64,000 bases of DNA from the NCBI RefSeq assembly GCF_001302565.1, contig NZ_CP012750.1:3847799-3911798 (forward strand), read 5' to 3'. Position numbers and translations under genes: made by a program. Shown here in pieces: positions 13,917 through 17,018 of this stretch (positions are counted from its first letter, which is position 1; each line of letters begins with the position of its first letter). The stretch comes from Glutamicibacter halophytocola. GTDB taxonomy: Bacteria > Actinomycetota > Actinomycetes > Actinomycetales > Micrococcaceae. The notes under the pieces were generated by a model. That model worked only from the letters and a program-made list of their open reading frames with translations, was not told the DNA's origin and did no database searches.

Positions 13917-15272
13917 TTAACCCTCGGAGGACATATTGCTGAAGCGCGAGTAGTGGCCTTGGAATGCCACGGTGATGGTTTTGGTGGGACCGGCACGGTG
14001 CTTGGCGATGATCACGTCGGCCTCGCCTGGACGGTTTTCCTTGTCATACACATCATCACGATGCAGCAGGATCACCATATCGGCGTCCTGCTCAATGGAA
14101 CCGGATTCACGAAGGTCCGAAACCATTGGCCGCTTATCGGTTCGCTGTTCGGAACCACGGTTCAGCTGCGACAGCGCGATCAGCGGAACATCGAGCTCCT
14201 TGGCCAGCAGCTTGAGGTTACGCGAGAACTCGGAAACTTCCTGCTGGCGTGATTCCACGCGCTTGCCCGAACTCATCAGCTGCAGGTAGTCGAGGATGAT
14301 CATGCGCAGCTCATTGCGCTGCTTCAGGCGGCGGCACTTTGCGCGGATTTCCATCATGGACATATTCGGCGAATCGTCGATGAACAGCGGCGCTTCATTC
14401 AACCGGCCCATGGTGGTGGCAATCTTGGTCCACTGCGCGTCCTCCACCGAACCCTTGCGCAGGTCCTGGAGCTGGATGGAGGCTTCTGCCGAAAGCAGGC
14501 GCATCGCAATTTCATTGCGGCCCATTTCCAGGGAGAAGAAGACGGTGGCCATGTTGTTCTTGATGGCGGCGGACCGGGCGAAGTCCAGCGCGAAGGTCGA
14601 CTTACCCACTGCAGGACGGGCCGCGATGATGATCATCTGGCCGCCCTTCAGGCCCTGGGTCAGCTCGTCGAATTCGTAGAACCCGGTGGGCACGCCGGTG
14701 ATGCCGTCGCCGGCGTTCGCGGCGTTTTCGATTTCGTCTACGGTGCCTTCGATGATATCCGAGAGGCGTACGTAGTCTTCGCTGCTGCGGTTTTCCGCAA
14801 CCTTGTAGACCTCGGCTTGCGCTTCGTTGACGATGGCATCGACTTCTCCATCGGGCGAGTAGCCCATCTGGACGATGCGGGTTCCGGCGTCCACCAGGCG
14901 GCGCAAGACGGCGCGCTCGCGCACGATTTCTGCATAGTAGCCGGCGTTAGCGGCGGTGGGCACCTGCTGAATGAGGTTGTGAAGGTAGGCAGCGCCACCC
15001 ACGCGGGAAATTTCGCCGCGCTTGGTCAGCAAGTCGGCCACGGTCACGGCATCGGCAGGTTCGCCTCGGCCGTACAAATCGATAATGGCTTCGTAGATGG
15101 ATTCGTGAGCCGGACGGTAGAAGTCGGTTCCGCGCAGCGCCTCAACGACGTCTGCGATGGCGTCCTTGGATAGCATCATGCCACCGAGCACGGACATCTC
15201 GGCTTCGACGTCCTGTGGCGGCTTGCGCCCTGCGTCGGATTCTCGTCCTTCGTAAACCGGCTCAGCACTCAT
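13917..15272 (-). CDS. dnaB: Replicative DNA helicase DnaB
   Basis: Hexameric helicase of about 451 residues that unwinds DNA at the fork. Seen: the N-terminal helical domain (QDVEAEMSVLGGMMLSKDAI), a linker, Walker A AARPAVGKSTFALD near residue 220, Walker B MIILDYLQLMSS, the DnaB motif SQLNRGSEQR, and the arginine-finger region IAKHRAGPT near the C-terminus. No intein interrupts the usual sites. Start: MSAEP at 15272 has GGAAG 8 bases upstream; the ATG at 15287 directly abuts AGGGG. The 5' region contains a striking cluster of DnaA boxes, so DnaA may regulate it. Confidence 0.97.
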   Translation of the reverse strand: MSAEPVYEGRESDAGRKPPQDVEAEMSVLGGMMLSKDAIADVVEALRGTDFYRPAHESIYEAIIDLYGRGEPADAVTVADLLTKRGEISRVGGAAYLHNLIQQVPTAANAGYYAEIVRERAVLRRLVDAGTRIVQMGYSPDGEVDAIVNEAQAEVYKVAENRSSEDYVRLSDIIEGTVDEIENAANAGDGITGVPTGFYEFDELTQGLKGGQMIIIAARPAVGKSTFALDFARSAAIKNNMATVFFSLEMGRNEIAMRLLSAEASIQLQDLRKGSVEDAQWTKIATTMGRLNEAPLFIDDSPNMSMMEIRAKCRRLKQRNELRMIILDYLQLMSSGKRVESRQQEVSEFSRNLKLLAKELDVPLIALSQLNRGSEQRTDKRPMVSDLRESGSIEQDADMVILLHRDDVYDKENRPGEADVIIAKHRAGPTKTITVAFQGHYSRFSNMSSEG

Positions 15273-15377
15273 TGCAGACACTTCCATCCCCTATTGACCC
15301 CAGGGGGAAAAATCTTCCTTGCCAGATGGCAACGTTCCAACCTGCTAGTTGATGCCAACAGTTCAATGGATTACGTC

Positions 15378-15827
15378 TGTGGATATTTCTGCCCCAAAGC
15401 CAACAGTAGGGCCGATGTTTACCCACGTAAACCCCATTATCCACAGGTTCTGTGCATAACATACCCTCAGCTGTGGACTAGCCTGTTCACTGTCTGGGGA
15501 GAACCCTGTGGATTATTGTCAAGTACCCAACAGTAATAGTTATTGACTAGGCTTTTTGTATTTTCACATCTGTGGACAGGGAAATATTTTGTTGAAGATA
15601 GCGATATGTTCCCAGTAGTTATCAACACCCAAAAACGCCCGCAATACAGGGTTTATTGCAGTTTTCACACAGTTCTGCACATCTTGCCCACAGACGTGTG
15701 GATAACCATGTGGATATCCACGGAATCATAAAAGGCTTAGTCACCGGCCTTTAGCACGGTCAACTCGGCAAGTTATGGCCAATAGTCCACATTTTCGCGT
15801 AGCGGTCGCGATCCACACCGTGGATAA
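15378..15827. promoter_or_regulatory. Cluster of DnaA boxes upstream of dnaB
   Basis: In 450 bases there are two perfect boxes: TTATCCACA at 15437-15445 and TGTGGATAA at 15697-15705. One-mismatch boxes are at 15378 (TGTGGATAT), 15451 (TGTGCATAA), 15507 (TGTGGATTA), 15619 (TTATCAACA), 15709 (TGTGGATAT) and 15819 (CGTGGATAA). Weaker ones are at 15472, 15571, 15714 and 15783. The stretch 15540-15660 is AT-rich. Actinobacterial oriC normally lies beside dnaA, about 48 kb away, so this is a DnaA-controlled promoter, a DnaA-titration site, or a second origin-like element. No ORF in 15273-15931 looks real. Confidence 0.85.
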
Positions 15828-15931: not shown

Positions 15932-16432
15932 TTAGACGAGCTCAGGAACTGGGATTGAATGAAATCGGGAATCATGGAAGATCTGCGGCGAGTGCAGTGA
16001 TGTGTGATGCCCATGCACCTCCAAAAGCACAACCCAGTGGTCACCAGCTTCGACTTCGTTGTAAATCGACGTTTCCAGCCAGAGGGTGGACTCTTCAATG
16101 AACAGAGCGCCCTGCTCGGAAACCACGGTATCCACGCCGAGGAATCGATCGCCCTTCTTCGAAGCGATCTGCGCGCAGACCCCTCCATTAAGATCGCTGA
16201 GAACCGAAACACCAATGTGGCTGGCCTCGCGCAGTTTCGGCCAGGTGTTGGAGGTCTTCTGGACTGCAAACATCACCAATGCCGGCTCCAGCGAAACCCC
16301 GACAGTGAATGAGGATGCAACGATGCCGGTTTTCACGCCGTCCACTTCTGCACACAGAGCGGCCACGCCTGAGGGATGTTGAGCGAAAACCTTGCGTAGG
16401 GTTAGCGGGTCAAGTTCACGATTCAATGACAT
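15932..16432 (-). CDS. Flavin reductase domain protein
   Basis: The 166-residue FMN-binding split-barrel protein is of the flavin:NADH reductase type that supplies FMNH2 to two-component monooxygenases. Seen: HPSGVAALCAEVDG, the FMN-binding GIVASSFTVGVSLEPALVMF near residue 45, TSNTWPKLREASHIGVSVL, and the C-terminal HWVVLLEVHGHH. The ATG at 16432 is chosen because AAGGA lies 8 bases upstream; the frame is open far upstream without signals. No partner monooxygenase is nearby, so the physiological partner is unknown. Confidence 0.9.
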   Translation of the reverse strand: MSLNRELDPLTLRKVFAQHPSGVAALCAEVDGVKTGIVASSFTVGVSLEPALVMFAVQKTSNTWPKLREASHIGVSVLSDLNGGVCAQIASKKGDRFLGVDTVVSEQGALFIEESTLWLETSIYNEVEAGDHWVVLLEVHGHHTSLHSPQIFHDSRFHSIPVPELV

Positions 16433-17018
16433 GGCTCGATTCCTTCGGTTCTTGCCCACCGCGTCAGACCCAGCGGGAACAGCGGTTCGGGATGATCCGA
16501 ATCCGGTTGCCACTGAGGTTTCACGCCGTGCGCGGTACTTGTTCTGACACCATTTGGCGCAAAACCGAATCCTCACCTGGAGCACCCCACTACCGTTGAG
16601 AGGGTTGCCGATCAGCAAGCCAGGGCTTTTAGCTGATGCTCTTGATTCTGCTTAAAACAATATGACTCATGACGAAGCACCGTCAAACAATTCACTTCTC
16701 AAATCGCAATATTCAACAAAATATTCGACAGTGGCTCAGTTTTAGGGTCATGGAACAGTCCTTTATTCACCAATTCGGACCGCTTCAGGCACTTCAGCCG
16801 GCCATGAAGGTGTGAGCTTCGTCGTAACGCATTAACTTATGGCACGGCTAAATATCTTCCGGCATCTGCGCTTCGTGGAAAATCGGCGCCAGGGTTCGCC
16901 ATCAAGGATCTTCCCGCAAGGATTGCCGCGTACTTCAGCAGGTAAAGTGCAAATAATTGAACCGCAAGCCCCACCACTCGAACAGGCGCACCGCGCCCCG
17001 ACACTTTTGGAGTCACCC
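16433..17018. other. Intergenic region, no gene supported
   Basis: 586 bases between divergent genes. The part 16640-16840 is AT-rich and includes AATATT-CAACAA-AATATT (about 16708-16725), possibly promoter or operator sequence. No frame here has a ribosome binding site and family resemblance. Confidence 0.5.

Follow-up and report, generated by a model that had tools for sequence, protein, structure and literature searches.

The dense cluster of DnaA boxes located immediately 5′ of dnaB in Glutamicibacter halophytocola (window positions 15378–15827) is probably the control region of a DnaA-regulated dnaB promoter, and its most likely function is to couple the supply of helicase to DnaA, not to serve as a second replication origin. 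The boxes are conserved among relatives, they accompany dnaB when its neighbors change and, mainly within the organism's own family, they stand at an exact distance from a −10-like hexamer.

The window, i.e. the whole stretch of DNA analyzed here, is 64 kb in length and corresponds to C1:3847799–3911798, the final stretch of the 3.91-Mb contig C1 in a genome of 3.92 Mb and two contigs. The same contig carries dnaA at C1:355–1791, followed by dnaN, and is closed by the window. The cluster is ∼48 kb from the contig end, and the distance to dnaA given in the initial annotation is therefore correct if the contig is circular. The cluster itself occupies the gap between dnaB and a flavin reductase-like ORF, both of which are on the minus strand. 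The dnaB gene (13917–15287, minus strand), for the replicative DNA helicase, is a 456-amino acid ORF matching the Pfam DnaB N- and C-terminal domains (E values of 2e-35 and 4e-107, respectively), and its true start may be the in-frame ATG at 15272. Its upstream neighbor, the flavin reductase-like ORF (15932–16618, minus strand; PF01613), probably starts at the ATG at 16432, as judged by eye. A SAM-IV riboswitch (window 16530–16647, minus strand) is located at the 5′ end of this flavin reductase-like gene adjoining dnaB.

In the window and in the genus counts, TTATCCACA and its one-mismatch variants were scored as DnaA boxes. For the wider counts, beyond the genus, TTGTCCACA was accepted too because it is listed as the high-affinity DnaA box in both M. 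tuberculosis and S. coelicolor in the accessible part of PMC4285127. With this definition, the two perfect boxes (15437, plus strand, and 15697, minus strand) and the six or more one-mismatch boxes that the initial annotation had placed within these 450 bases were all recovered, so that the intergenic region 5′ of dnaB contains 8 boxes, 2 of them perfect and 6 with one mismatch. Positions with a minus sign are counted from the first dnaB ATG. Closest to the gene is ATATCCACA at −99 (15378–15386, minus strand; one mismatch), located just downstream of the predicted −10. It is followed by an inverted pair, whose inner arm is the perfect box at −158 (15437–15445, plus strand), and whose outer arm, 5 bp from the inner one, is TTATGCACA at −172 (15451–15459, minus strand). 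Farther out lie TAATCCACA at −228 (15507–15515, minus strand) and TTATCAACA at −340 (15619–15627, plus strand), each with one mismatch, and then the second perfect box at −418 (15697–15705, minus strand), which is separated by a 3-bp gap from the next, a further one-mismatch ATATCCACA at −430 (15709–15717, minus strand). The outermost box, TTATCCACG at −540 (15819–15827, minus strand), has no counterpart at this position in several members of the genus, and its columns are poorly conserved. The stretch between boxes from 15540 to 15660 is, as had been claimed, AT-rich (62% AT, or 38% GC versus 59% for the whole window).

The density of boxes was compared with that of shuffled and of same-genome sequence. 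Over 1000 dinucleotide-preserving shuffles of 15378–15827, boxes with up to one mismatch averaged 0.19 and never exceeded 2, as compared with the 8 observed. In 400 kb of the genome, sampled as 20 evenly spaced stretches of 20 kb, 29 such boxes were counted. Perfect boxes number 24 genome-wide, with two in the cluster, two in the dnaA–dnaN gap, six in a second cluster at C1:16559–17003 and 14 scattered elsewhere. Separately, three DnaA boxes (one perfect) were seen within 450 bp at positions 14433–14859 of locus L030, near a CpaF/TadA-like ATPase gene and an FtsK/EssC-like gene, both named by eye.

Neither equal density elsewhere in the genome nor a lack of conservation among relatives, two of the outcomes that the initial annotation had set against its own proposal, was found: the 8 boxes here compare with 3 in the densest 450-base control window, and boxes are present 5′ of dnaB in every one of the 18 genus genomes. 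This count covers all 18 genomes searched, that of the organism included, each with 7–10 boxes in the 700 bp preceding dnaB, and it leaves out the second dnaB of genome G003 (L022, 2 boxes) as well as L023, a paralog with 31% identity and 0 boxes within 700 bp. The genus boxes mostly share their positions, at about −430, −418, −340, −228, −172, −158, and −99 relative to the first ATG, with a box at −93 to −108 in every one of the 18 loci. In an alignment of the 18 genomes the box columns were 91% conserved versus 65% for the rest of −560 to −80, a value not equaled when eight 9-mers were placed at random 5000 times.

The boxes extend well beyond the genus. In the family, where 41 genomes yielded 30 loci and 28 after the organism's own locus and another of its genus had been left out, 27 of the 28 dnaB loci have 4–9 boxes and L099 has one. 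The class sample (59 genomes giving 30 loci, with the organism's own left out and with genomes having split or lower-scoring matches missing) contained at least one box in 29/29 dnaB loci and at least two in 26/29, where shuffle means ranged from 0.02 to 0.52; L044 belongs to both the class and the family sets. In the class, dnaB matches are split inside one long open frame in many genomes (e.g. G072 and G051), a pattern of the kind that inteins would leave.

A scan of named records, covering the 77 loci with enough upstream sequence from the best 80 among the matches listed, found at least two boxes 5′ of dnaB in 42/47 actinomycete loci, 4/6 loci of other actinobacterial lineages, 1/23 loci of other phyla and 0/1 for a divergent Streptomyces helicase. 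Ten of the 47 actinomycete loci are from Streptomyces and seven are MAGs named to phylum only, which were placed by DnaB identity. In other classes of the phylum, sampled as one locus per family from 89 such genomes, at least two boxes were present in only 5 of 20 further loci, and for this reason the dense form looks, from these sequence counts, like a trait of the class.

The gene upstream of dnaB varies among the 15 loci viewed and the organism's own, and the boxes stay with dnaB; across the family, class and named-record loci the cluster keeps with dnaB despite these changes of neighbor. In Mycolicibacterium the upstream gene encodes ribosomal protein L9 (Pfam), and in Corynebacterium, Leucobacter, and Modestobacter it is presumably the same gene. 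Streptomyces, Nonomuraea, Nocardioides, and a Bifidobacteriaceae MAG have in this place what we take to be a divergent MATE-type transporter. Modestobacter (L120) is an exception, with two-mismatch boxes only. Sediminivirga has 0 boxes, and its upstream ORF stops ∼80 bp from dnaB, leaving little space for a separate promoter; L130, with a putative upstream ORF, may resemble this arrangement. Loci with zero or one box are L099, L107, L120, L130, L131, L148, L046, L058, and L060, and an obvious reason for the scarcity was apparent in L107 only and, less surely, in L130.

The boxes closest to dnaB surround a predicted promoter on the minus strand. Its −10 hexamer, TACTGT (15403–15408), starts 42 bp past the end of the 15451–15459 box, and its −35-like hexamer, TTTACG (15426–15431), is 17 bp from the −10 and matches the consensus weakly. 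Across the 18-genome alignment the T, A, G, and T of TANNGT and the TTT of TTTACG are invariant. The TTTACG/TACTGT pair was absent from the output of a standard consensus promoter scan, which returned one weak site on the opposite strand where 0.8 are expected by chance. The core shared by the genus is the inverted box pair (TTRTCCACA-like, 5 bp, TGTGGATAA), located just upstream of the −35 position. The aligned order, comprised of a box, 5 bp, an inverted box, ∼5 bp, a TTG- or TTT-like hexamer, ∼17 bp and TANNGT, is found in several Micrococcaceae-like genera, in Streptomyces and in Nocardioides (hexamer TAA), and many other loci are without the pair.

In a set of 71 loci, approximately one per genus, a dnaB-strand box ends 42 bp before TANNGT in 20 loci and 43 bp before it in 8, which amounts to 27 different loci as one has both. 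The average over the 90 offsets scanned was 0.84 loci and the next best offset reached 5. The 42/43-bp offset is present in 19 of the 24 loci from the organism's own family, where 500 null runs averaged 0.52 and reached at most 4, as compared with 8 of the 47 non-family loci, where they averaged 0.47 and once reached 6, and on account of this difference the exact box-promoter geometry is best described as a predicted family feature that is sporadic elsewhere. The non-family loci with the offset include a Streptomyces-like one (L053), Amycolatopsis, Nocardioides, Actinomyces, and Diaminobutyricibacter. When the looser TANNNT was allowed, 12/47 non-family loci were found versus a null maximum of 5, with offsets 31 and 53 also reaching 5. 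Mycolicibacterium L127 is without the 42/43-bp offset, as is L070, which looks mycobacterial and has a box displaced upstream by one helical turn.

The boxes also follow a regular spacing. The favored same-strand spacings are 11–12, 21, 32, 43–45, 55, and 64–66 bp, of which 11–12 bp is the commonest, and the periodicity over 70 loci and 317 boxes was R = 0.62 at 10.9 bp as compared with a jittered null maximum of 0.20, a value that includes spacings inherited in common by related genera, without correction for kinship.

DnaA at dnaB is already known from mycobacteria. In the accessible passages of PMC7738170, both IDAP-seq with M. tuberculosis DnaA and ChIP-seq in M. smegmatis place DnaA upstream of dnaB, the latter having recovered homologues of the same five M. 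tuberculosis regions. The same passages describe M. tuberculosis DnaA I282T, with less binding to the dnaB promoter and a unique under-expression of dnaB, and their authors draw a comparison between the dnaB site and Caulobacter.

Collectively, these data favor the promoter as the best reading because the boxes are linked to dnaB and, at the family level, keep their spacing to the predicted promoter. Three readings had been offered in the initial annotation; that of a DnaA-regulated dnaB promoter gained from the dnaB link, the family offset and the mycobacterial binding, and that of an additional origin gained no support from GC skew or from the search for DnaA trios. We propose that in this organism DnaA would bind the box array 5′ of dnaB, with the inverted pair immediately preceding the −35 of a predicted promoter that has TANNGT as its putative −10, and with the further boxes tending toward multiples of about 11 bp. 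Bound DnaA would most likely activate dnaB from this predicted promoter, such that helicase supply would track DnaA activity. Activation is favored because of the boxes just upstream of the −35 and the DnaA I282T result. Conversely, an excess of DnaA could repress transcription via the box just downstream of the predicted −10. Eight boxes exceed what a promoter needs, and this leaves room for a second role.

A candidate partner in such a role is the second cluster (C1:16559–17003; 445 bases, within L001 16530–17030), which contains six perfect boxes and sits between the gene pair for cyclophilin (ppiA) and a rhomboid protein and a gene that we take to be crgA-like. By synteny it presumably occupies the place of the mycobacterial DnaA-bound Rv0010c–Rv0011c region. 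The second cluster also contains repeated GTTATTAAC-like palindromes, seen by eye. Thirty-three genomes gave 30 rhomboid loci, 7 of them from the organism's own genus, and at least three boxes are present within 1500 bp after the rhomboid gene in 27 of the 30, with none in L194, L195, and L206; shuffles of these stretches contained an average of 0.32 boxes and a maximum of 3. The four boxes of L190 are spread, with at most two in any 500 bp, and L197 has three boxes upstream of the rhomboid gene as well. A guanidine-III riboswitch (L001 18598–18664, plus strand) was also observed, with a small multidrug-resistance-like ORF just downstream of it (by eye).

It is possible, and we hold this tentatively, that the array 5′ of dnaB has a joint role, regulating dnaB and also buffering free DnaA together with the ppiA–crgA cluster. 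The data that speak for the promoter and for a DnaA sink speak equally for this combination, and in M. tuberculosis the Rv0010c–Rv0011c and dnaB regions are, in the accessible passages of PMC7738170, both among the five regions most strongly bound by DnaA. The regulatory half of the combination is the promoter reading itself, so that the confidence given to the two overlaps and is not additive, and the buffering half is putative.

A different weighting, in which the cluster serves chiefly as an origin-proximal sink or inactivation site for DnaA, resembling E. coli datA in role, with its link to dnaB incidental or secondary, appears unlikely. Such a site would be copied soon after initiation, bind DnaA and thereby delay re-initiation. 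The surplus of boxes over the need of a simple promoter would suit a sink, as would the presence of a second dense cluster ∼16.6 kb right of the contig start and the distance between dnaB and dnaA, which is 22–91 kb in the 23 of 31 genomes where it could be read. The datA-like arrangement, a cluster of DnaA boxes outside oriC yet close by, is indeed present, and according to the accessible part of PMC4585315 such clusters near oriC can hold back untimely initiation in Streptomyces coelicolor and Bacillus subtilis. However, a pure sink need not hold the exact −10-like offset seen in 19/24 own-family loci, nor need it remain immediately 5′ of dnaB as the neighbors change. With dnaB itself 22–91 kb from dnaA in those 23 genomes, genome position cannot separate promoter from sink. 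Genome G003 has two dnaB copies (L020 and L022) that are 99.9% identical over the gene, the second of which (L022) lies ∼200 kb from dnaA with fragmented flanks and retains little of the DnaA-box region. This second copy may be an assembly artifact and supports neither the promoter nor the sink.

An additional or former replication origin is very improbable. Many boxes do adjoin an AT-rich stretch, and the AT-richest 60 bases of the cluster are 70% AT versus 65% in the dnaA–dnaN gap and 68% in the second cluster. However, the cumulative GC skew, summed over the window and the first 20 kb of the contig (84 kb), has its minimum ∼11 kb right of the contig start and not at the cluster (−48 kb), and the element follows dnaB, not a replication landmark. 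DnaA-trio-like runs of at least four triplets were found in none of the cluster, the dnaA–dnaN gap and the second cluster. The skew and trio tests thus gave no support to an additional origin. Finally, a chance cluster within an AT-rich intergenic region can be dismissed with near certainty, since although single boxes arise randomly (379 matches with at most one mismatch genome-wide versus 282 for a reversed control pattern), the shuffles, the conservation throughout the genus and the conservation of the box columns all reject it.

If the promoter reading is true, the cluster would form a direct wire from the initiator DnaA to the helicase gene. It also pinpoints the bases at which two questions can be posed, namely whether dnaB is activated by DnaA and whether these boxes also withhold DnaA from the origin. 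In its widest form, which we offer as a conjecture that may well not hold, dnaB across the actinomycetes would be fired by a promoter-phased DnaA-box array that, with the ppiA–crgA cluster, acts as a class-wide origin-proximal DnaA buffer that contributes to the timing of initiation.

Smulczyk-Krawczyszyn et al. are said to have described, in 2006, clusters of DnaA boxes near oriC of Streptomyces coelicolor. Those clusters are outside oriC but close to it and in the same bacterial class, as is the cluster studied here. In the accessible part of PMC4585315 they are cited as repressing untimely initiation, a different role from the one favored for the present cluster. The datA and DARS sites of E. 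coli are likewise non-coding DnaA-box clusters outside oriC; they differ in that, according to the same part of PMC4585315, datA and DARS act by altering the nucleotide state of DnaA, whereas the array here is tied to a predicted gene promoter. DnaA of E. coli prefers paired boxes 2–3 bp apart, many of them at regulated genes (PMC11317965, accessible part). The same-direction boxes 11–12 bp apart, with gaps of 2–3 bp, e.g. 15697/15709, are arranged as these E. coli pairs are, whereas the promoter-proximal pair is inverted with a 5-bp gap and thus unlike them. The DnaA domain I dimer is conserved across Actinomycetes according to passages of a 2026 paper (PMC13270200), and by extension this dimer could help hold such arrays. 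In the accessible portion of a cyanobacterial paper, the dnaB promoter serves only to drive tagged DnaB.

The closest known counterpart is mycobacterial. The site at Rv0057 in M. tuberculosis and that of M. smegmatis concern the same gene and the same place relative to dnaB (PMC7738170, accessible passages). The mycobacterial loci examined have fewer boxes than the cluster here, with 3 in Mycolicibacterium L127, 2 in the mycobacterial-looking L070, and 0 in the MAG L130, and they are without the exact 42/43-bp offset, unlike most loci of the organism's own family. The passages of PMC7738170 report binding and one expression change, and box-promoter geometry and a wider spread are absent from those passages. 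In a limited search of the open-license literature, no description of either the class-wide spread or the box-promoter geometry at dnaB was found. Taken together, the comparison suggests that the DnaA binding seen upstream of dnaB in mycobacteria goes far back in the class rather than being peculiar to mycobacteria.
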